From: Prosthecomicrobium pneumaticum
GTDB taxonomy: Bacteria; Pseudomonadota; Alphaproteobacteria; Rhizobiales; Kaistiaceae
DNA length: 64,000 nt
Reading direction: 5' to 3'
Assembly: GCF_014199915.1 (NCBI RefSeq)
Contig: NZ_JACHOO010000001.1
Span: 434,001-498,000, forward strand
Part shown: positions 33,418-45,223 of the stretch, piece by piece
How the letters are laid out: the number at the start of each line of letters is the position of its first letter
Position numbering within the stretch: position 1 is the first letter of the stretch
Made by a program: the position numbers and the translations under genes
The notes under the pieces: model-generated
Seen by the model: only the letters and a program-made list of their open reading frames with translations
Databases searched by the model: none
Told to the model about the DNA's origin: nothing

Positions 33418-34113
33418 CTAAGGCCGATCGAAAAGGTCCGTGCCCGGACCGAACGGCCCGAGCACCGGATCCGCCCTGAGGCTGCAGCAATGGAGCGGCG
33501 ACGAGCCGACTTTCGGACAGGTCGCCACCATGCGGAAGAGATCCACAGGAGAGGACGCGCCCATCTTGTGCAGCACGTTGATGCGATGGCCCTCGACGGC
33601 CTTGACGCTGAGCTTCAGCTCGCGCGCCGCAACCTTGTTCGGCAATCCCCGCAGCACGCAGTCGAGAATCGCCTTCTCCCTCTCGGTCAGGGTGTCGAGC
33701 TTCATACGGGTCTCGCGGCAGATCATCTCGCCGGCATAGCTGTCGGCATCGGCCCGGATCCATCGCTGCACGAGTTGCAGCAACAAGGTGTCGTTGACGG
33801 GCTTCTCGAGCATGTCGCAGGCGCCGGCGTGGAGCGCCCGCACGGCGGTCGCGACATCCGCGTGGCCGCTCACGAACAGCACCGGCATTGTCCACCCGGA
33901 CCGGCGCATTTGTCGCAGCACGTCGAGCCCGCTGATGCCGGGCAGCCGCATGTCGAGAACCGCGCAGGCCGGCCGGCTGATCCGCCGCTGCTCGAGAAAG
34001 GTCTGCGGGTGTGAGAAAAGCTCGGTTCTCAGGTTGACCGAGGCGAACAGGGCGGCAAGCGAGGCGCTGTAGCCGGCATCGTCATCGACGATGTAGACCG
34101 TCGGTTCGTGCAT
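33418..34113 (-). CDS. FixJ-type response regulator (REC + LuxR HTH)
   Basis: The 231-residue protein has a receiver domain with Asp10-Asp12, phospho-acceptor Asp54 in Leu-Asp-Met-Arg-Leu-Pro-Gly, Ser82 and Lys104. A GerE/LuxR helix-turn-helix follows (Leu-Thr-Glu-Arg-Glu-Lys-Ala-Ile-Leu, then Val-Glu-Gly-His-Arg-Ile-Asn-Val-Leu-His-Lys-Met). A 40-residue tail with two Cys follows the HTH. It lies 11 bases behind the histidine kinase gene, and the pair is divergent from gvpA. I infer that it regulates the gas vesicle cluster, perhaps through the CTAG-type inverted repeat at 35671-35690. Confidence 0.9.
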   Translation of the reverse strand: MHEPTVYIVDDDAGYSASLAALFASVNLRTELFSHPQTFLEQRRISRPACAVLDMRLPGISGLDVLRQMRRSGWTMPVLFVSGHADVATAVRALHAGACDMLEKPVNDTLLLQLVQRWIRADADSYAGEMICRETRMKLDTLTEREKAILDCVLRGLPNKVAARELKLSVKAVEGHRINVLHKMGASSPVDLFRMVATCPKVGSSPLHCCSLRADPVLGPFGPGTDLFDRP

Positions 34114-34124
34114 TCACACGTCCT

Positions 34125-35024
34125 TCACTGCGCTGGGGCCAGCTGGATGGAGAAGACGGTTCCGCGGCCCTCGCACGGGCGCGCCTCGATCGCGCCCCCC
34201 ACCCGCTGCAGCAGCGTGCGGACGACGTGCAGGCCGAGCCCCCGGCCGGTCGCCTTGCCGCTCACCAGAGGCTCGAAGATGCGTGCACCGAGAGACTCCG
34301 GTATGCCACGTCCCGTATCGCCGATATCAACCCGAACCGTTCCGGCGGGTTCCTGCGCCACTCGCACGGTGAGACGCCGGGTCCAGAGTGGGACGTTGAC
34401 CATCTCCTCGACCGCGTTGGCGATGACATTGTGAAGGACCTGCTCGAGCAGCGTCTGGCTGCCGCGCACTGCCGGCACCGTGGCGGGCCGTTCGAACTCG
34501 AGATCGACGACCGTCTCGGCGAGTGCCGGGCGGAGGCGGGCGATGACGGCGTCGATGGCCTCCAGAACGTCGCCGGCGCCCGCTTCAGGACCGCCATTCG
34601 CAGGCTCGGTCGCGCTGCGGACGATGTCGGCGGCGCGCTGCGCTTCCTTGCGGATGGCGACCAGCAGATCCTGGAGCCGCTTCAGGCTCGCGGCCTGCGC
34701 CTCGATCGCGTTGAGCGCGGCGCCGGCGAGATTGGTGATCGCGCCGAGCGGCTGGCGCAGTTCGTGCGCCAGCATCTTCACCGCCTCGGCGGGCGCGGTC
34801 TCGACGAGCGGTCCTACGGGGAGCAGAGCACCCTCCCCGAGGATCCCAGCCCGCTCGCTGCGCAGAACGGCGTGGTCGCCGACCGGCCCCAGAGGCTGTG
34901 GCGCGCCGGGCAGATCCGGAGCCACGCCGGTCGCGGCGGACGAGCGCAGCGCGAGCACGGCCCGGGCGCGCTGAATCCTGCGCTGGTCCGCGCTGCCGGC
35001 CCCCGGCATTTCGGGAGTTCTCAT
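34125..35024 (-). CDS. Soluble sensor histidine kinase, partner of the FixJ-type regulator
   Basis: The 299-residue kinase has the H-box Met-Leu-Ala-His87-Glu-Leu-Arg-Gln-Pro-Leu, a dimerisation helix pair, N-box Asn-Val-Ile-Ala-Asn-Ala-Val-Glu, and ATP-lid motifs Asp-Thr-Gly-Arg-Gly-Ile-Pro and Gly-Arg-Gly-Leu-Gly-Leu-His-Val-Val. No membrane helix, PAS or GAF domain is visible. The first 80 residues are Ala/Gly/Pro-rich without a known fold, so the signal is unknown. It resembles the FixL/PdhS-like HWE-independent HisKA class. GAAGG precedes the chosen ATG. Confidence 0.85.
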   Translation of the reverse strand: MRTPEMPGAGSADQRRIQRARAVLALRSSAATGVAPDLPGAPQPLGPVGDHAVLRSERAGILGEGALLPVGPLVETAPAEAVKMLAHELRQPLGAITNLAGAALNAIEAQAASLKRLQDLLVAIRKEAQRAADIVRSATEPANGGPEAGAGDVLEAIDAVIARLRPALAETVVDLEFERPATVPAVRGSQTLLEQVLHNVIANAVEEMVNVPLWTRRLTVRVAQEPAGTVRVDIGDTGRGIPESLGARIFEPLVSGKATGRGLGLHVVRTLLQRVGGAIEARPCEGRGTVFSIQLAPAQ

Positions 35025-35870
35025 GTGGATGACCTTCGGATCAAAAATGGAGACGGGGCGGCCTCCCTCCACCCCTTGCTTTCGAAACGCGTGCGCCCAA
35101 CCGATCGGGAAGGCGCCGGCTCTCCGAACCGGCGGGCCGGACGGGCGGCGGCCTAGCGCCGCTGCAGGAGCCGCGGACCGAGGCGATGCCCTGGACGATA
35201 AAACCCTGCCGCGCCGAGGCGGCCGGACGAGTGTTCGTCCGCGACGCGGCCCGCGCCCCCCGTAACCCGCGTCGTGCAAGCATGATGCATCATCGTTCCT
35301 GCCCCCTCTTCAATGCCCCCGACAACGCCCGATCAGCGGATTGGGCGTTGCGCAGCTACGGATTCCTCAACCCAGAGTACCCCAGTCGATGTCTCATTAA
35401 ATTGGATCAACTATTCCGGATTTGAAGAATTGCCCGTGTCGCACTGTTTCGCCAACGGCGCGAGAGGGGGGGACATCGTTCTATCGCCTCCCGAATTATT
35501 TCCCCGTTGCTCCCCCGCCAATTCGGCACAGCTCCGACACGGCAAACCCACCGGCGGGCCGGCCTGCCGGTGGACGCCGCGCTCCGACAGCCTCCTCCGT
35601 GATCGGGCCGAGCCTGGAACGAAGGCTCGCATGGCGCCGGCCGACTGTCCGCCCGTGCGTCCCCGGTTTGTCCTAGGGCAATCCCTAGGATGCTCCCACC
35701 CACCGCCGGCCGGCTGCCGGCTTCGCCTGATTCCATCCCGGGGATAGACCGACGCAAGCCCGGGCCGACAGCGCCTAGCTGAAGTGAAGCCGACCAGCGA
35801 CAATGCAATTGCTTACTGGCACTGCCTGTGTCCACTAAGTGCAGATTTTGCTTGTCAAGAGGAGATTCTG
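35025..35870. other. 846-bp divergent regulatory region before gvpA
   Basis: No credible gene is present. It separates the divergent kinase gene and gvpA and should hold both promoters. It is less GC-rich than its surroundings near 35340-35430 and 35800-35870. Visible elements are a 12-bp palindrome ATGATGCATCAT (35282-35293) and the CTAG-type inverted repeat at 35671-35690. A possible -35 TTGCTT lies at 35809-35814, with a poor -10 after 17-18 bases. Confidence 0.6.
35671..35690. promoter_or_regulatory. Perfect 8-bp inverted repeat, candidate operator of gvpA
   Basis: TCCTAGGG, a CAAT spacer, then CCCTAGGA. The tetramer CTAG is rare elsewhere in this GC-rich window, and two copies 12 bases apart in symmetric context are conspicuous. 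It lies 180 bases before the gvpA start. A size of 20 bp with 4-bp spacing suits a dimeric LuxR/FixJ-type regulator, and such a gene lies just to the left. Confidence 0.6.
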
Positions 35871-36083
35871 ATGGCAGTAGAGAAGATCAATGCTTCCAGC
35901 AGTCTTGCGGAAGTCGTCGATCGTATTCTCGACAAGGGCGTCATTGTTGATGCCTGGGTTCGCGTTTCGCTGGTCGGCATCGAACTGCTCGCCGTCGAGG
36001 CGCGCGTGGTCGTTGCGGGTGTCGATACCTACCTGAAGTACGCCGAGGCCGTCGGCCTGACGGCGGGCGCTCAGGCGGCCTGA
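35871..36083 (+). CDS. gvpA: Gas vesicle major shell protein GvpA
   Basis: The 70-residue hydrophobic protein matches the canonical GvpA: [15 protein letters not shown], [17 protein letters not shown] and Glu-Ala-Arg-Val-Val-Val-Ala. Its subunits form the ribs of the gas-filled cylinder that gives cells buoyancy. AAGAGGAGA gives a strong ribosome binding site. A hairpin starts right behind the stop codon, and the next gene is 317 bases away, which would let gvpA mRNA accumulate above the rest. Confidence 0.98.
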
Positions 36084-36151: not shown

Positions 36152-36400
36152 CGCTGGGGTGACTGCGCGTCGTGTCGTCCGGACGGACCCGGCGGCGGCG
36201 TTGTTTCTATGACAAGCAACTCATTCGATCGTTTGACCAGCCGTTGTGCGGACTCTTGGTCTCGAGCGGCTCGTCGGCAGGCAGACCGCCTCCTCCGGCG
36301 AGCGCCAACGAGGGAGTCCACCTCCCGAATCCGGCAACCCGGCAAGCGATATCTGGCAAGCGAGAGCTGGCGAGCGAGAGCCGGCAAGGAGGCATGGACC

Positions 36401-37180
36401 GTGTCTTTGACCCGACAGATGTCTACGATCGTCGCGGCGTCGAAGGCCGCGCGTGCGGCGCGGCACGACGCCGTCGGGCGCATCCGCGCCGAGACCGCGC
36501 GACATCTTGCGGCAGCGAGCGCCGCCCACAAGGCGAGTGCGGCGCAGCAGCGCAAGCATCTCGCCGCCGAGATCGGCAGGCTGCGACGCGCCACCAAGCA
36601 GATCCTCGGTGCAGCCGAGCGTCAGGTGGGGTCCTACCGCAAGACCCGGCTCGCCGGCGCCGCCAAGCTGCGCAAGGAGCTCTCGACGGCTTTCAAGGCG
36701 ACCCGGACGGCCGGCAACGCCCGTCGCGCGGCGACCTGGAAGGCCCTGAAGGCGCAGTACGGGGCCCGCCGGCAGGCGACGGCCAGCGCTCTGCAGGCGC
36801 TCCGCGCCGGCGTCTCGGCAGCGACCGTGGCCAATCGGGGCTTTCTGGCCGAGCTCGCCAAGGACCGCGCCGGCGCCGCCCGCCTCTGGCACGAGCGGCT
36901 CGTTTCGCCGGCCGCTCCGGTCGCCGTGACGCCCGCGCCGGCCGTGGTGGCTCCTGCGGCGCCCGAGCCGGTCGCGTCTGCACCGACCGTCGTCACGCCG
37001 GTCGAGCCGGCTACCGCCGCCGCCATCGAGGCGGAAGCCGTGAAGGTCGAGCCGGTGAAGGGGGAGACCGCCGATGCGCCGGTTTCCGAGCCGGCGAAGG
37101 TGAAAGCGGAGCCGGCCGCCAAGGCCGAGGTGAAGGCCCCGACGGCCGCCGCCAAGCCGCGCCCGGCGAAGGTCGAGTAA
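36401..37180 (+). CDS. GvpC-like basic helical protein
   Basis: The 259-residue protein starts at a GTG preceded by AAGGAGG with 8-base spacing; longer frames give unrelated sequence. Residues 10-165 are Ala/Arg/Lys-rich, predicted continuous helix with loose repeats (Ala-Ala-x-x-Arg-x-x-Ala-Lys). The rest is a Pro/Ala/Val/Lys tail. Its place directly after gvpA and its helical repeats suggest the outer reinforcing protein GvpC, but the strongly basic composition is atypical and classical 33-residue repeats are not clear. Alternatively it is a cluster-specific scaffold. Confidence 0.5.
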   Translation: MSLTRQMSTIVAASKAARAARHDAVGRIRAETARHLAAASAAHKASAAQQRKHLAAEIGRLRRATKQILGAAERQVGSYRKTRLAGAAKLRKELSTAFKATRTAGNARRAATWKALKAQYGARRQATASALQALRAGVSAATVANRGFLAELAKDRAGAARLWHERLVSPAAPVAVTPAPAVVAPAAPEPVASAPTVVTPVEPATAAAIEAEAVKVEPVKGETADAPVSEPAKVKAEPAAKAEVKAPTAAAKPRPAKVE

Positions 37181-37244: not shown

Positions 37245-38291
37245 ATGACGCTCGTCTCACAATCGCTCGACGTCGACATCAACGGCGCCGGGAGCGCGAC
37301 GCTGCCCGCGCCGGCCCGCAGCAGCGCTTCGACTCTGGCGCCGCGGCCGCGCTCCGACTTCGTGGAGACGGGGGCTCTGAAGGATCTGACACGCCGCGGG
37401 CTGAGCTTTCTGCGCGCCGGTTATCCGCTGCACTTTCGGGGTCCGGCCGGCACCGGAAAGACCACGCTCGCCCTGCATGTCGCGGCGCAGCTCGGCCGGC
37501 CGGTCATCCTGATCTCCGGCGACAACGAACTCGGCACTGCGGATCTGATCGGCTCGCAGCGCGGCTACCACTACCGCAAGGTCGTCGATCGCTTCATTCA
37601 CAGCGTGACCAAGCTCGAGGAAACCGCCAACCAGCAGTGGACGGACCACCGTCTCACCACCGCCTGCCGCGAGGGCTACACGCTCGTTTATGACGAGTTC
37701 ACGCGCTCCCGGCCGGAGACGCACAATGTTCTGCTCGGCGTTTTCGAGGAGAAGATGCTCTTCCTGCCGGCGCAGGCCGGACGTGATCATTACATCCGCG
37801 TCCATCCGGACTTTCGGGCGATCTTCACGAGCAATCCGCTCGAATATGCCGGTGTCCATTCGAGCCAGGATGCGCTCGCCGACCGACTGGCGACGATCGA
37901 TGTCGACTATCCCGAGCGCGAGATGGAGGTGGCGGTCGCCGCTGCACGTTCCGGCCTGCCGAAGGCCGCCGCGGCACGGATCGTCGACCTCGTGCGCGCC
38001 TTCCGCGCTTCGGAGAACTACGTCCAGACGCCGACGCTCCGGTCGAGCCTGATGATCGCCCGGGTTGCGGCGCTCGAGGGCTATACCGTCGCCGCCGACG
38101 ATCCCCGTTTCGTCCAGCTCTGCCTCGATGCGCTCGAATCGCGCGTCTTCTCCGGCTCGCAGGCGAAGCTCTCGGAGCGGCAGGAGCGGCGGACGGCTTT
38201 GCTCGCCCTCGTCGCCACACACTGTCCGGCCGCCGGCGCGAAGCCGGTCCGGGTCCGCGCGACGCCGAAAGCGGTGGAGAGCCTCGCATGA
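37245..38291 (+). CDS. gvpN: Gas vesicle AAA+ ATPase GvpN
   Basis: The 348-residue MoxR-type ATPase has Walker A Gly-Pro-Ala-Gly-Thr-Gly-Lys-Thr (residues 66-73), Asp-Asn-Glu-Leu-Gly-Thr-Ala-Asp-Leu-Ile-Gly, Walker B Thr-Leu-Val-Tyr-Asp-Glu-Phe-Thr-Arg and sensor Ile-Phe-Thr-Ser-Asn-Pro, all typical of GvpN. In studied systems it aids growth of vesicles to full width. Its stop overlaps the start of the next gene by ATGA. Confidence 0.96.
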   Translation: MTLVSQSLDVDINGAGSATLPAPARSSASTLAPRPRSDFVETGALKDLTRRGLSFLRAGYPLHFRGPAGTGKTTLALHVAAQLGRPVILISGDNELGTADLIGSQRGYHYRKVVDRFIHSVTKLEETANQQWTDHRLTTACREGYTLVYDEFTRSRPETHNVLLGVFEEKMLFLPAQAGRDHYIRVHPDFRAIFTSNPLEYAGVHSSQDALADRLATIDVDYPEREMEVAVAAARSGLPKAAAARIVDLVRAFRASENYVQTPTLRSSLMIARVAALEGYTVAADDPRFVQLCLDALESRVFSGSQAKLSERQERRTALLALVATHCPAAGAKPVRVRATPKAVESLA

Positions 38292-38649: not shown

Positions 38650-39210
38650 ATGAGCGGCGAAGACGACGATAAAGCGGGCGGTGGCGAGGGCGGCAAGCCC
38701 GCCGGAGCCGGCGGCGGTCCGAAGGGCGCCGAGGCGATCGCGGAGATCGGCGCAGTGTTCAAGGGGCTCGGCGGCTTCGTCGAGATGCTCGGTGCGCTGG
38801 TCGAGAAGGCCGAAACTGTGGAGCGCCAGGGTTCTTTCACCGTCAAGGGCGCGGGCGACGAGGCGCAGGGCGTCTATGGCTTCAGCGTCCGCACGGGTCT
38901 CGGCGGCGTCCCGCGCGTCCGCAGTTTCGGCAATGTCCGCCCGACGGCCAGGGGTCCGGTCGTGGACGATGTGCGCGAGCCACTCGTCGATCTCTTCGAC
39001 GAGGCCGACGGGGTGATCGTCACGGCCGAGATCCCCGGCGTTGCGGAAGACGAGATCGCGCTTTCGATCGAGGACGGCAAACTCTCGATCACGACGAGCG
39101 GCCGCCATCGCTATGCGAAGACGATCGCCCTCCCCGCCGGTGTCGACCCCGCCTCGCTCGAACGGAGCCATCGCAACGGCATCCTCCAGGTCAAGCTGCG
39201 GAAGGTCTGA
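38650..39210 (+). CDS. gvpH: GvpH-like Hsp20 family protein
   Basis: The 186-residue protein has a Gly/Lys-rich disordered start and an amphipathic helix (about residues 28-53). A C-terminal alpha-crystallin/Hsp20 domain follows, with Pro-Leu-Val-Asp-Leu-Phe-Asp-Glu, Val-Ile-Val-Thr-Ala-Glu-Ile-Pro-Gly-Val and a final Gly-Ile-Leu-Gln-Val-Lys-Leu. This is the layout of bacterial GvpH, regarded as a small heat-shock chaperone for aggregation-prone vesicle proteins. It sits 11 bases after the coiled-coil gene and 5 before the metallopeptidase-like gene. Confidence 0.85.
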   Translation: MSGEDDDKAGGGEGGKPAGAGGGPKGAEAIAEIGAVFKGLGGFVEMLGALVEKAETVERQGSFTVKGAGDEAQGVYGFSVRTGLGGVPRVRSFGNVRPTARGPVVDDVREPLVDLFDEADGVIVTAEIPGVAEDEIALSIEDGKLSITTSGRHRYAKTIALPAGVDPASLERSHRNGILQVKLRKV

Positions 39211-39215
39211 AACGT

Positions 39216-40235
39216 ATGGCGGGTGTCGTCGAGGTCGTCGAGAACATCTCCGTCGGCGGCGCCCGGGTCCGGGTCGTCACGGATTGTGCGCGCGACGTCG
39301 GATTCCTGGTGGATGCGGAGAAGACTGTGGTCGCCCGTCTCACCGAGCGGGGCCTGTGGCCGCACGCGGCGGTGACGCTGATCGTGCTCGACGAACTCGC
39401 CTCCCTGGTCGGGCCGCTCAAGGCGCTCGGCCGGCTGCCCGAAGCGGCGCTGCTGCAGCTGCCGCAGCGGCCCATGGTCAATCTCTACGATCCGCGCAGC
39501 CCTGCGGAATGCTTCATCTTCGTCAACCGGCGGATCATGACCGACGAAGGCTGCTGGGGCGACGCGCGGGCCGCCACCGGGCTGCTGGCGCACGAACACG
39601 CCCATCCGCTCTCGGAGGCGCCGGCGACGGCGGCGGCGCGGACGCTCCAGGTGCGGGTGGAGGCGCCGCCCGTGCTCATCGAGCCGGCGCTGCATCTGGC
39701 CCGGACGCTGTCCACCGGGGCGGTCACGGAACTGCTCGCCAACACCTTCTGCCTCAAGCAGGGTTTCGGCGAGGCGATCGGTCACCTCGACCGGCTGACG
39801 CTCGGCCGCGCCCTCGCCAACCTGCCGCAGAGGGCGGAGCTCGAACGCCGGGCCAGCGCCGCGGTGGCGGCCGGGTCGCTCGCCCGGGCGGTGGCGCGGC
39901 CGCTGCTCCTCATCGCCGATGCGCAGATTGGCCTGCCCTTCGCGCTCGAGATCGCGCCCTTCGCGCGGGCCGGAGCGCCCGATGAGGCGATGGCGCTCGA
40001 AGCGGTGCTGAGCGCCGGGCTTCTCGCCGCGATGCCCCCCGAGGTCGGCGAGATCTATGGGGAGTTGCGGCGCGCCTTCGAGCGCGTCCAGCCGGAATGG
40101 GATACCCGGGCCATCGAGGCCTGGTGCACAGAGATCCTCGCGCAGCTGTGCGCATTCCTCTCGGACGGCGGCGCCGCGATCCGTTTCAGCCTCGAACCGG
40201 CCGCAATGGCCGGTCCGGAAGGAAGACAGTCATGA
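39216..40235 (+). CDS. Putative zinc metallopeptidase in the gas vesicle cluster
   Basis: The 339-residue protein has no signal peptide. It carries His126-Glu-His-Ala-His130 (HExxH) inside a hydrophobic helix (Gly-Leu-Leu-Ala before it). Downstream is Thr-Glu172-Leu-Leu-Ala-Asn176-Thr-Phe, resembling the E-x-x-A-N/D helix that supplies the third zinc ligand in gluzincin-type peptidases such as M48 and M78/ImmA. The C-terminal half is helical. Five bases separate it from gvpH, and its stop overlaps gvpF by ATGA, so it belongs to the gvp operon. I know no named Gvp protein with this architecture. A processing or quality-control protease is an inference. Confidence 0.55.
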   Translation: MAGVVEVVENISVGGARVRVVTDCARDVGFLVDAEKTVVARLTERGLWPHAAVTLIVLDELASLVGPLKALGRLPEAALLQLPQRPMVNLYDPRSPAECFIFVNRRIMTDEGCWGDARAATGLLAHEHAHPLSEAPATAAARTLQVRVEAPPVLIEPALHLARTLSTGAVTELLANTFCLKQGFGEAIGHLDRLTLGRALANLPQRAELERRASAAVAAGSLARAVARPLLLIADAQIGLPFALEIAPFARAGAPDEAMALEAVLSAGLLAAMPPEVGEIYGELRRAFERVQPEWDTRAIEAWCTEILAQLCAFLSDGGAAIRFSLEPAAMAGPEGRQS

Positions 40236-41008
40236 GCCGGTCCTCCGCCATCGAGGGCGACGCGCCCGACGGCAAATATCTCTACGGCATCATCGAAGCC
40301 GCCGACGACGCACAGTTCGAAACGCCCGGAATCGGCACGGGCGCGCCGGTGCACACGCTGCGCTGCGGCCGGCTCGCCGCGGTGGTGAGCGACGCCCCAC
40401 GCATCGATTATCCGAACAGCCGTCGCAACATGCTGGCGCATACCCGGGTCATCGAGGAAGTGATGGCCCGCCACACCCTGCTGCCGGTGTGTTTCGGCAC
40501 GGTCGCCTCCGACGCCGAGGCCGTGGTCGAGAAGATCCTGCGGCCGCGCCGCGACGAACTGCTCGAGCGGCTCGGCCTGATGCAGGACCGCGTCGAACTC
40601 GGTCTCAAGGCGACCTGGCACGAGGATGTGGTTTTCGAGGAAGTCCTCGCGGAGAACCCGGCGATCCGCAAGCTGCGCGACTCGCTCGTCGGCCGGCCCG
40701 CCGAAAAAACGCATTTCGATCGGGTGCGGCTCGGCGAGCAGATCGGCCAGGCGCTCGAGCGCAAGCGTCTCGAAGACGAGCAGCGCATCCTCGACCGGCT
40801 GCGCTCCTTCGTCCACATGACGAAGCTCAACAAGCCGATCGGCGACCGCATGGTGCTCAACGCCGCCTTCCTGGTCGAGGCGGCGCAGGAGCGCGCCCTC
40901 GACCAGGCGGTGCGGGCGATGGATGCCGACTGGAGCGCCCGGCTCGGCTTCAAATATGTCGGTCCGGTGCCGCCCTACAATTTCGTGACCATCACCATCC
41001 ACTGGTAG
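40232..41008 (+). CDS. gvpF: Gas vesicle protein GvpF
   Basis: The 258-residue protein has the GvpL/F family start Gly-Lys-Tyr-Leu-Tyr-Gly-Ile-Ile, Leu-Ala-Ala-Val-Val-Ser, the helix Ala-His-Thr-Arg-Val-Ile-Glu-Glu-Val followed by Leu-Leu-Pro-Val-Cys-Phe-Gly-Thr-Val, and the closing Pro-Val-Pro-Pro-Tyr-Asn-Phe-Val. It is the most canonical of four family members in the cluster. GvpF binds GvpA and is thought to keep it soluble and to nucleate assembly. Its start overlaps the metallopeptidase gene by 4 bases. Confidence 0.94.
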   Translation: MSRSSAIEGDAPDGKYLYGIIEAADDAQFETPGIGTGAPVHTLRCGRLAAVVSDAPRIDYPNSRRNMLAHTRVIEEVMARHTLLPVCFGTVASDAEAVVEKILRPRRDELLERLGLMQDRVELGLKATWHEDVVFEEVLAENPAIRKLRDSLVGRPAEKTHFDRVRLGEQIGQALERKRLEDEQRILDRLRSFVHMTKLNKPIGDRMVLNAAFLVEAAQERALDQAVRAMDADWSARLGFKYVGPVPPYNFVTITIHW

Positions 41009-41016
41009 AGGCGGCC

Positions 41017-41268
41017 ATGGCGATCCTGACCAATGTTCTCGGTGCGCCGGTCGTCGGACCGCTCAAGGGCGTGCTGTGGCTGAGCCGGCTGCTGCTCGAG
41101 CAGGCCGAGGCGGCCCTCTATGACGAGAACGCCATTCGCGCCGGGCTGTTTGCGCTCGAGGAACGGCTCGAAGCCGGCGAGATCGACGAGGCGCAATATG
41201 AGAAGGAAGAGGACGTCCTGCTCGAGCGGCTCAGAATCGCGCGGGAACGACACCGCGGCGGCGGCTGA
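41017..41268 (+). CDS. gvpG: Gas vesicle protein GvpG
   Basis: The 83-residue protein matches GvpG: a hydrophobic start (Gly-Ala-Pro-Val-Val-Gly-Pro-Leu-Lys-Gly-Val-Leu-Trp), then an acidic helix with Leu-Glu-Glu-Arg-Leu-Glu-Ala-Gly-Glu-Ile-Asp-Glu and Glu-Lys-Glu-Glu-Asp-Val-Leu-Leu-Glu-Arg-Leu. It begins 8 bases after gvpF. GvpG is an essential accessory protein in studied clusters and interacts with GvpF/L. Confidence 0.93.
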   Translation: MAILTNVLGAPVVGPLKGVLWLSRLLLEQAEAALYDENAIRAGLFALEERLEAGEIDEAQYEKEEDVLLERLRIARERHRGGG

Positions 41269-41788: not shown

Positions 41789-42121
41789 ATGGCCGATCAG
41801 AGGATGGAGCACTCGGTCCAGGCGGCGGGCCTCGCCGATATCCTGGAGCGCGTCCTCGACAAGGGCATCGTGATCGCCGGCGACATCTCGATCTCGCTGG
41901 TCGAGGTCGACCTGCTCAACATCCGGCTCCGCCTCGTGGTGGCGTCGGTCGACCGTGCCATGTCGATGGGAATCAACTGGTGGCAGAGCGACCCGCATCT
42001 GAGCGTCGAGGCGAGCGCGCTGCGCGAGGAAAACCGGATGCTGCGCGAGCGGCTCGACCAGGTCGAGGTGGCGCTCGGCGTCGCCCGCCCGACGGAAACG
42101 ATCGGCGCGCGCGATGAGTGA
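41789..42121 (+). CDS. gvpJ: GvpA-family minor protein, GvpJ type
   Basis: The 110-residue protein has a GvpA-like core (Leu-Ala-Asp-Ile-Leu-Glu-Arg-Val-Leu-Asp-Lys-Gly-Ile-Val-Ile-Ala-Gly-Asp-Ile-Ser-Ile-Ser-Leu) plus a C-terminal extension with a coiled-coil stretch (Leu-Arg-Glu-Glu-Asn-Arg-Met-Leu). Such longer paralogues are GvpJ/M/S proteins, thought to form tips or nucleation sites. Its end overlaps the Cdc48-like gene by 8 bases. The letter assignment within J/M/S is tentative. Confidence 0.82.
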   Translation: MADQRMEHSVQAAGLADILERVLDKGIVIAGDISISLVEVDLLNIRLRLVVASVDRAMSMGINWWQSDPHLSVEASALREENRMLRERLDQVEVALGVARPTETIGARDE

Positions 42122-44234
42122 CCCGGCCGAACCGCTCGCCTTCTGGGTCCGCGAGGCGGACGGCCGCGATGTCGGCCGCGGCCTGGTCCGTCTCGACCCC
42201 GCCGACATGCAGCGGCTCGGGGTCGAACCGGGCGATGTGGTCTCGATCGCCGGCCGCCGCACCACGGTGGCCCGCGCCATGCCCGCCCATGCCGGCATGC
42301 GCAAGCAGAGCCTCGTCCAGCTCGACGGGCTCACTCGCGTCAATGCCGGGGCGAGCCTCGACGAGAAGGTGGTCCTGAGGGCAGCGGCGGTGGCACCCGC
42401 CCGCTCCGTGACGCTCGCCCAGGCGGGGACGCGGGCGGCCCCGCTCGAATCCCGGCAGCTCGCCCGGTTCCTCGAGGGGATTCCGGTGATCGCCGGGGAC
42501 CGGGTGCGCACGACGCTCGTCGGCGCGCAGGCGCGCGAGTTCACGGTGGAGCGCACCGATCCGCCCGGCCCCGTGCTCGTCGGCGCCGAGACGCGGATGC
42601 GCGCGGTCGACGGCGCCGCCGGCGGCACGACCGTGACCTATGAGGATGTCGGCGGCCTGCGCGCCGAGGTGCAGCGCATCCGCGAGATGATCGAGCTGCC
42701 GCTCAAGCATCCCGAGGTGTTCGCCCATCTCGGCATCGAGCCGCCCAAGGGCGTTCTCCTCTCCGGCCCGCCCGGCACCGGCAAGACGCTGATCGCCCGT
42801 GCGGTGGCGCGCGAGGCGAACGTCCATTTCATTCATCTCAACGGCCCCGAGATCATCGACAAGATGTATGGGGCGAGCGAGGCGCAGCTGCGCCGCATCT
42901 TCGAGGAGGCGCAGAAGAACGCGCCGTCGATCATCTTCATCGACGAGTTGGACGCGATCGCGCCGAAGCGCGAAGAGATGAGCGGCGACCGGCAGGTCGA
43001 GCGCCGCGTCGTCGCGCAGCTGCTCGGACTGATGGACGGGCTCGAGACGCGCGGCCACGTCGTCGTCATCGCCGCGACGAACATTCCGAACGCCATCGAC
43101 CCGGCGCTCCGCCGGCCGGGCCGGTTCGACCGCGAGATCGTCATCGGCGTGCCGGACGAGGCCGGTCGCCGCGAGATTCTCGCGGTACACAGCCGCGGCA
43201 TGCCGCTCGCCGCCGATGTCGATCTCGACCGGCTCGCCGCGCGCACGCCGGGCTTCGTCGGTGCGGACCTCGCCGCGCTCTGCCGGGAGGCCGCGATGAG
43301 CACGCTCAGGCGGCTGGCGCCCGACCTCACCCTCGAAGACGGCCGGCTCGCCGACCACACCCTCGCCGCCCTCACGGTCGCCGGCGTCGATTTCGAGGCC
43401 GCCGTCGCCCTCGTCCAGCCGAGCGCGCTGCGCGAGATCGTCACCCAGGCCTCGCACAAACGCTGGCAGGACGTCGGCGGGCTCGACGCGGTGAAGCGCA
43501 CGCTGACCGAGGCCGTCGAGTGGCCGGCCCGGCACGCCGATCTCTTCGCCGCCGCGGGCGTGGCACCCCCGCGCGGGATTCTCTTCTACGGTTCACCGGG
43601 CACCGGCAAGACGCTGATCGCCAAGGCGCTCGCCGGGGAGAGCGGTGCAAATTTCATCCCTGTGAAGGGTCCGCAGCTGATCTCGATGTGGGCCGGCGAA
43701 TCCGAGCGCGGCGTCCGCGAAGTGTTCCGCAAGGCGCGCCAGACGGCGCCCTGCATCATCTTCTTCGACGAGATCGACACGCTGACGCCGGCGCGCGGCG
43801 GGCTCGGCAACGCGATCACCGACCGGGTGGTCGCGCAGCTGCTCACCGAGATCGACGGCATCGAGGAGCTGCGCGGCGTCACCGTGCTCGCCGCCACCAA
43901 CCGGCTCGACCAGATCGACCCGGCGCTTTTGCGGCCCGGACGCTTCGACCTGCTGATCGAGTTCGGCATGCCCGACCTCGCAACCCGACGCGCCATCCTC
44001 GACGTGCATGTCCGGCCGATGCCGCTCGCCGACACCGTCGATCTGGTGACACTCGCCGCCGCGACGGACGGACTCGTCGGGGCGGAGATCGAGGCGCTCT
44101 GCCGCTATGCCGGCATCGCGGCAATCCGCGATGCGCTCGCGGTGCGCGCCTCCGGCCGCGCTGCCGCGCTGTCGGTCGAGCCGCGCCATTTCCACGATGC
44201 CCTCCATCTCGTCCGGCGGGAGAAGGTCGAATGA
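42114..44234 (+). CDS. Cdc48/p97-like double AAA+ ATPase in the gas vesicle cluster
   Basis: The 706-residue protein has an N-terminal double-psi-barrel-like domain (about 1-150) and two AAA+ modules. D1 has Walker A 218-225 (Gly-Pro-Pro-Gly-Thr-Gly-Lys-Thr), Walker B 273-280 and pore loop Lys-Met-Tyr-Gly. D2 has Walker A 493-500 (Gly-Ser-Pro-Gly-Thr-Gly-Lys-Thr), Walker B 547-555 and pore loop Met-Trp-Ala-Gly-Glu-Ser. Arginine fingers (Arg-Pro-Gly-Arg-Phe-Asp) are present in both. All catalytic residues are intact, so it should be an active hexameric unfoldase. Overlaps with gvpJ (8 bases) and the next gvpF/L gene (ATGA) tie it to the operon. It may disassemble or remodel vesicle proteins. 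Confidence 0.9.
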   Translation: MSDPAEPLAFWVREADGRDVGRGLVRLDPADMQRLGVEPGDVVSIAGRRTTVARAMPAHAGMRKQSLVQLDGLTRVNAGASLDEKVVLRAAAVAPARSVTLAQAGTRAAPLESRQLARFLEGIPVIAGDRVRTTLVGAQAREFTVERTDPPGPVLVGAETRMRAVDGAAGGTTVTYEDVGGLRAEVQRIREMIELPLKHPEVFAHLGIEPPKGVLLSGPPGTGKTLIARAVAREANVHFIHLNGPEIIDKMYGASEAQLRRIFEEAQKNAPSIIFIDELDAIAPKREEMSGDRQVERRVVAQLLGLMDGLETRGHVVVIAATNIPNAIDPALRRPGRFDREIVIGVPDEAGRREILAVHSRGMPLAADVDLDRLAARTPGFVGADLAALCREAAMSTLRRLAPDLTLEDGRLADHTLAALTVAGVDFEAAVALVQPSALREIVTQASHKRWQDVGGLDAVKRTLTEAVEWPARHADLFAAAGVAPPRGILFYGSPGTGKTLIAKALAGESGANFIPVKGPQLISMWAGESERGVREVFRKARQTAPCIIFFDEIDTLTPARGGLGNAITDRVVAQLLTEIDGIEELRGVTVLAATNRLDQIDPALLRPGRFDLLIEFGMPDLATRRAILDVHVRPMPLADTVDLVTLAAATDGLVGAEIEALCRYAGIAAIRDALAVRASGRAAALSVEPRHFHDALHLVRREKVE

Positions 44235-45223
44235 CCGAAACGCTTCTGTTCGCCGTCACCGGCGCCGATCTCAACGGGGCGGATCTCGAGGGTCCGGGCC
44301 TGCCGCCCGGCCTGACCATCGTCCGCGAGAGCGGTCTCGCGGCGGTCGTCGGGCCCGCCCCCGAGGGCGGCTTCCATCAACAGGAGCGCAGTGCGCTGCT
44401 GCCGCTGCTGCTCGCCCGTCAGAAGCTGATCGGGCGGCTGCTCGACAGCGCAACCATCCTGCCCGTGGCGCTCGGGACATCCGTCGAGGACATCGGCCGC
44501 ATCCGCCATCTGCTCGCCGCCGGTGCCCCCGTGATCAGAACCGCGCTCGGCACGGTCGATGGCTGCGTCGAATACGGTCTGTCGGTGCGCGCCGAGACCG
44601 TCGCGAAGACCGACGAGGACGAGGAGCAGGCGGAAGAGGACGCCCTCGGCGCCACCGCCACCCTGCTCTTCGAGACGATCGCCGCGCAGGCGGCGGATTC
44701 GGCACGGGCCCGCGCCGCCGAGCGCCGCGACCGGGCGCGGCGAGTCCTGATCGAGCGCCTCGCGCCGATCTGCCGCGATCTGATCGTCACAGAGCCTGGT
44801 GATCCGTCGGTGATCGCCGAGCTGGCGCTGCTGGTGCCGCGACGCGCCGCCGAGGCGCTCGACGACGCACTCGAATCCGTCGACCAGAGCTTTGCCGGAC
44901 AGCTGGCGCTGCGGCTCGTCGGCCCCCTGCCGCCCTACAGCTTCGCCACGGTGCACGTCCATCTCGGCACGATGGCGGCGGCCGAGGCGGCGCGGCGCCT
45001 GCTCGGCGTGCCGGCCGGCGCCGATCCGGCGGCACTGCGTCAGGCCTATCGGCACGCGATCCGCCGGGTTCATCCCGACCTCGTGCCCGAAGGCGCCGAG
45101 CCGATCGAGGCCGCGGATGGCACGGCGGCCGACGTCGCGGCGCTCACCGCGGCGCACCGTGTGCTGCAGGCCGAGCACGTGCCGGTGTCGATCCGTCGCC
45201 AGCCGACGCAGGCGGCCGGCTGA
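44231..45223 (+). CDS. GvpF/L protein fused to a J domain
   Basis: The 330-residue protein has a GvpL/F body (residues 1-245: Gly-Leu-Ala-Ala-Val-Val, Thr-Ile-Leu-Pro-Val-Ala-Leu-Gly-Thr, ending Gly-Pro-Leu-Pro-Pro-Tyr-Ser-Phe-Ala). A DnaJ-like domain follows at about 250-316: helix I Ala-Arg-Arg-Leu-Leu-Gly-Val, helix II Leu-Arg-Gln-Ala-Tyr-Arg-His-Ala-Ile-Arg-Arg-Val, the loop His281-Pro-Asp283, and helix III Leu-Thr-Ala-Ala-His-Arg-Val-Leu-Gln. An acidic insert (128-138) lies in the Gvp part. The intact HPD suggests it recruits DnaK to gas vesicle clients. It overlaps the ATPase gene by 4 bases. Confidence 0.85.
   Translation: MTETLLFAVTGADLNGADLEGPGLPPGLTIVRESGLAAVVGPAPEGGFHQQERSALLPLLLARQKLIGRLLDSATILPVALGTSVEDIGRIRHLLAAGAPVIRTALGTVDGCVEYGLSVRAETVAKTDEDEEQAEEDALGATATLLFETIAAQAADSARARAAERRDRARRVLIERLAPICRDLIVTEPGDPSVIAELALLVPRRAAEALDDALESVDQSFAGQLALRLVGPLPPYSFATVHVHLGTMAAAEAARRLLGVPAGADPAALRQAYRHAIRRVHPDLVPEGAEPIEAADGTAADVAALTAAHRVLQAEHVPVSIRRQPTQAAG

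Follow-up and report, generated by a model that had tools for sequence, protein, structure and literature searches.

Gas vesicles are buoyancy organelles. In the window (the whole stretch of 64,000 nucleotides that was analysed, from an alphaproteobacterium), the gas vesicle (gvp) operon contains a real, conserved and unnamed gene, here termed X, whose product shows good signs, in its sequence and in structural models, of a gluzincin-like site. X most likely represents a new soluble gluzincin-like family that is specific to one type of gas vesicle operon and would act as a peptidase on Gvp proteins. On balance, we favour a reading of X as a gluzincin-type metallopeptidase, soluble and cytosolic, whose dedicated role would be in making gas vesicles; here the gene, its conservation, its synteny and its predicted fold are what the analysis shows, and the metal, the catalysis and the substrate are what we infer.

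Gene X lies between an Hsp20-type gene and gvpF

X (39216..40235, + strand; 339 amino acids) was characterised by ORF translation, homologue alignment and AlphaFold2 modelling as a putative soluble gluzincin-like protein belonging to no known family. Translation and alignment place HEHAH at residues 126-130 (39591..39605, +), with H126 and H130 as candidate zinc ligands and E127 as the candidate catalytic residue. The segment TELLANTF (residues 171-178) begins with T171-E172-L-L-A-N176, and its ELLAN motif (residues 172-176; 39729..39743, +) supplies the candidate third ligand E172, 42 residues past H130, as well as N176; the HExxH reading frame of the original prediction was confirmed in all these respects. 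There is no transmembrane stretch (maximum 19-residue hydropathy of 1.53). X shares its operon and a conserved place with the named Gvp accessory proteins (GvpF-GvpZ), but none of these was found described as a metallopeptidase (PMC9501494, PMC4982088), and searches of X against Pfam and NCBIfam, Gvp models included, gave zero matches. A search of PHROGs returned nothing, and PDB sequences yielded no relative, only ribosomal L17 and ferredoxin noise.

The operon includes gvpA, encoding the main shell protein (35871..36083, +; PF00741), a gvpN-type AAA_5 ATPase gene identified by profile search (37245..38291, +), a gene for a coiled-coil protein (starting at 38288) and, directly 5′ of X, an Hsp20-type, gvpH-like gene (38650..39210, +; PF00011). 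Directly 3′ of X is gvpF (40232..41008, +; PF06386, 240.7 bits), followed by gvpG (starting at 41017), gvpO (41350), a second GvpA-type gene (41789), a CDC48-type double AAA+ ATPase with a CDC48 N domain (42114..44234, +), a GvpF/L protein with a C-terminal J domain containing an HPD motif (44231..45223, +), a further GvpF/L gene (45247), a third GvpA-type gene (46037) and a fourth GvpF/L gene (46275). The stop codon of X overlaps the gvpF start in the sequence ATGA (40232..40235, +), through which the two genes are probably translationally coupled; the earlier description of X as translationally fused to gvpF holds for the overlap, and "overlapping" is the better term.

X and its motif residues are conserved in gas vesicle loci

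Homologues of X with 32-65% identity to the window protein occur in 12 further alphaproteobacterial loci. A search of genome contigs with a two-sequence alignment gave 11 loci, which belong to Xanthobacter agilis, Ancylobacter polymorphus, A. dichloromethanicus, A. vacuolatus, Xanthobacteraceae 501b, two Hyphomicrobium-type MAGs, an Acetobacteraceae MAG, a Rhodospirillaceae MAG and two others; searches of genomes of the same order added genome G823 and a divergent homologue in genome G896. When the window protein was the sole query, a pattern scan of genome and viral contigs gave no relatives and tblastn gave none in plasmids. Single weak matches in genomes G222 and G348, with E about 1e-4 and internal stops in one of them, were discarded as chance.

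Every gas vesicle locus with a homologue has X immediately after the Hsp20 gene, with gvpF next in all contigs that extend far enough, and the order Hsp20 gene, X, gvpF is seen in 12 complete loci. The ATGA overlap at the X stop is present in all intact homologues examined, and the gap 5′ of X is a few bases. In the Rhodospirillaceae MAG, X is frameshifted after about residue 229, which is probably an assembly error because the adjoining genes in the same MAG are broken too.

Residues H126, E127, H128, H130, P131, E134, E172, A175 and N176 are invariant in the gvp-linked homologues and position 129 is either A or G, with HEH(A/G)HP, E172 and N176 retained in 12/12 of those that cover these sites. 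An 11-sequence alignment with members down to 32% identity has 45 invariant columns, among them H126, E127, H130, E172 and N176, and by this sequence comparison the motif residues of X are conserved beyond chance.

A gluzincin-like fold is predicted for X

An AlphaFold2 model of X built from 12 sequences (pLDDT 89.7, pTM 0.88) has an N-terminal part consisting of a beta hairpin, a helix (29-44) and strands 52-58, 87-92 and 95-104, the last being an edge strand that precedes the helix carrying HEHAH (117-132). E172 is located in a helix spanning residues 167-181, and the C-terminal part is a helical array reaching residue 317. This order of elements is that expected for a gluzincin. The original prediction expected a modelled structure to place His126, His130 and Glu172 around one metal site, and the predicted positions of the two helices are consistent with a single site.

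Foldseek gave nothing significant for the full-length model, and no match reached E < 0.001 with either the full-length protein or the domain. The domain query was the isolated catalytic domain of a Hyphomicrobium homologue (pLDDT 82), whose C-terminal helix is poorly predicted, probably from truncation; the large majority of its top 50 matches were M1, M9 or M34 zincins, comprising M1 aminopeptidases, M9 collagenases and an M34 peptidase with probabilities of up to 1.00, E about 0.02 and TM about 0.35 (IRAP, probability 0.98-1.00). A zincin/gluzincin fold of X is likely on the basis of these models.

Comparison with known peptidase families

When X was compared by hhalign with four M48 proteins from the host genome, the edge strand and the HExxH motif aligned with a score of 34.0 (probability 44%), against a maximum of 21.8 among 300 column shuffles. 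The control comparison with M41, another HExxH family, scored 18.8 and left the HExxH unaligned. Two X homologues weakly match Pfam Peptidase_M48 (E 0.009 and 0.03; 16.3 and 14.5 bits; cut-off 20.3), the window protein itself matches neither Pfam M48 nor M78, and no family was found above its curated cut-off for X or its homologues. M48 (PF01435) and X have in common the HExxH helix behind an edge strand (xFVNRxIM / xxVTxGLL) and a downstream ExxA(D/N); X differs in being soluble without membrane helices, in its HEHxHP motif and C-terminal helical array, in its occurrence here almost only in gvp loci, and in carrying ExxAN in all members, whereas the M48 proteins of the host genome carry ExxAD. 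Membership of M48 was rejected on the score of the best homologue (16.3 bits against a gathering score of 20.3) and on the ExxAN motif, and by sequence M48 is the family nearest to X, though X is no member by the usual test.

The original prediction had proposed an M48 or M78/ImmA layout, of which the M48 half is supported as a distant profile resemblance around the catalytic helix. M78 (ImmA/IrrE) and X are alike in their HExxH and ExxAN motifs and in being small soluble proteins, but the hhalign comparison gave a score of 18.7 (probability 1.2%) that was equalled by 6/300 shuffles, and M78 membership was rejected for want of profile similarity. The same comparison bears on whether X might be an ImmA/IrrE-like regulatory peptidase with a gvp repressor as its target. 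The ExxAN motif of X is reminiscent of M78, and the window and several relatives have a two-component system upstream, but we regard this role as improbable given the M78 result and a conserved operon core that contains no DNA-binding repressor gene. X also showed no association with mobile elements or a repressor, and the Hyphomicrobium loci conserve X but not the divergent pair of two-component genes.

M1 aminopeptidases (IRAP, ERAP1/2, APN) resemble X in the predicted catalytic domain (Foldseek probability up to 1.00) and in having HExxH and a Glu helix with a helical region after them, but X is far smaller, shares about 10% identity with no detectable sequence relationship, and has an HExxH-Glu spacing of 41 residues as opposed to 18 in M1. 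Of the features of the gluzincin clan (MA(E)), X has HExxH and, in a downstream helix of the model, the Glu of ExxxD/N, present as E172/N176. The interpretation in the original prediction holds in part, in that a gluzincin-like fold and putative metal site are supported by the invariant motif, the predicted secondary structure, the Foldseek matches and the M48 profile.

A histidine at the position of H128 in HEHAH is atypical among zinc peptidases, which counts against a peptidase. HExxH by itself is no proof of peptidase activity, and HExxH enzymes that modify or oxidatively cleave peptides occur in RiPP pathways (PMC12636437). That X is a non-peptidase enzyme of this kind is highly improbable, in that it matches no NCBIfam HExxH-modification model and its downstream ExxAN and fold matches point toward gluzincin peptidases.

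X is linked to gas vesicle genes and has probably been lost in one lineage

Among 398 genomes of the same order, GvpF/L is present in 8, X in 5 and both in 4, an overlap with a chance of about 3e-7 (hypergeometric, ignoring phylogeny). The fifth genome with X is G896, which has no GvpF/L; its homologue (L070:1459-2490) is an orphan beside a globin gene, either a relic or a repurposed protein, and has an intact frame of 365 codons in which REHAQ replaces HEHAH, with both histidines lost and QQVFAN kept. Loss of the motif residues was the finding that the original prediction had set against peptidase function, and it is confined to this one homologue outside any gvp locus, all gvp-linked homologues having kept them. 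The His pair is therefore kept only alongside gas vesicle genes, and the G896 loss, one case and not proof, fits a metal-dependent role that would be tied to the organelle.

The G896 homologue also suggests that the fold can persist without the histidines, as would be the case if X were a non-catalytic assembly factor or chaperone of gluzincin fold, perhaps with a structural zinc, that binds GvpF or shell proteins. The chaperone-like genes around X and its probable co-translation with GvpF agree with such a role, which we nevertheless consider rather unlikely: all gvp-linked members keep not only the two histidines and E172 but also E127, whose expected part is that of catalytic base, with no contact to the metal as a ligand.

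X is missing from two related gvp operons that look complete (G247 and G1028), in which the Hsp20 gene adjoins gvpF. In a tree built from five Gvp proteins, these operons are sister to the X-bearing Hyphomicrobium operons (local support 0.93), and X was for this reason probably lost once in the G247/G1028 lineage. X is old within this type of gas vesicle operon, yet it is dispensable and no general requirement for the organelle, since this sister lineage lacks it.

Proposed function of X

X would be a metallopeptidase made together with GvpF and the Hsp20 protein. A single zinc ion would be coordinated by H126 and H130 of the HEHAH helix and by E172 of the later helix; E127 would serve to activate water and N176 to orient a zinc-binding His. 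The helical array at the C-terminus, from about residue 185 to 317, may bind substrate or partners. X may then trim or remove aggregation-prone or surplus Gvp proteins, either shell proteins of the GvpA type or assembly factors of the GvpF/L type, possibly in concert with the Hsp20, J-domain GvpF/L and CDC48-type unfoldase of the operon. A protease with such Gvp substrates fits a chaperone-rich operon that encodes these three proteins and GvpN. A systematic interaction study has led to the view that GvpF chaperones the shell protein and to the suggestion that the AAA+ protein GvpN folds or proofreads it (PMC11445434). The original prediction had put forward GvpC-like proteins, GvpF/L proteins and misassembled shell protein as candidate substrates. 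Processing of GvpC was rejected as the leading substrate idea because Hyphomicrobium loci keep X with no recognisable gene in the GvpC position. More tentatively, X may be the founder of a gas vesicle peptidase family and may, together with the Hsp20 protein, the J-domain GvpF/L and the CDC48-type unfoldase of the operon, make up a system private to this protein organelle for its quality control or disassembly.

In the open-access literature, no paper was found describing a protease among Gvp proteins. To our knowledge, the mechanisms by which gas vesicles are proofread, remodelled and dismantled are largely unexplained. Should its activity be demonstrated, X would be the first protease devoted to gas vesicles. 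X makes these mechanisms directly testable, as a conserved gvp-linked putative zincin that offers one clean catalytic mutant (E127A) and cultured hosts such as Ancylobacter and Xanthobacter agilis, and it could also prove useful for controlling gas vesicles that serve as ultrasound reporters.

Other genes of the gvp loci

The C-terminal HPD of the J-domain GvpF/L protein was seen in nearly all alphaproteobacterial relatives examined, X-less operons included, and this protein may link gas vesicle assembly to Hsp70. The CDC48-type ATPase gene lies inside the gvp operon in the window and at the far end of the operon in those that have no X. The protein encoded in the GvpC position (36209-37180) has no Pfam match, is rich in Ala, Lys and Arg with a Pro/Ala/Glu tail, and is fast evolving (32-40% identity to relatives); it is likely a divergent GvpC. 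In Hyphomicrobium-type loci, a 248-residue protein of no known family is encoded between gvpA and gvpN (L038:7233-7979 and L040:1374-2120). The divergent two-component system (33418-35279, -), consisting of a LuxR-type regulator and a histidine kinase, is conserved upstream of gvpA in Xanthobacteraceae-type loci and is a possible gas vesicle regulator.
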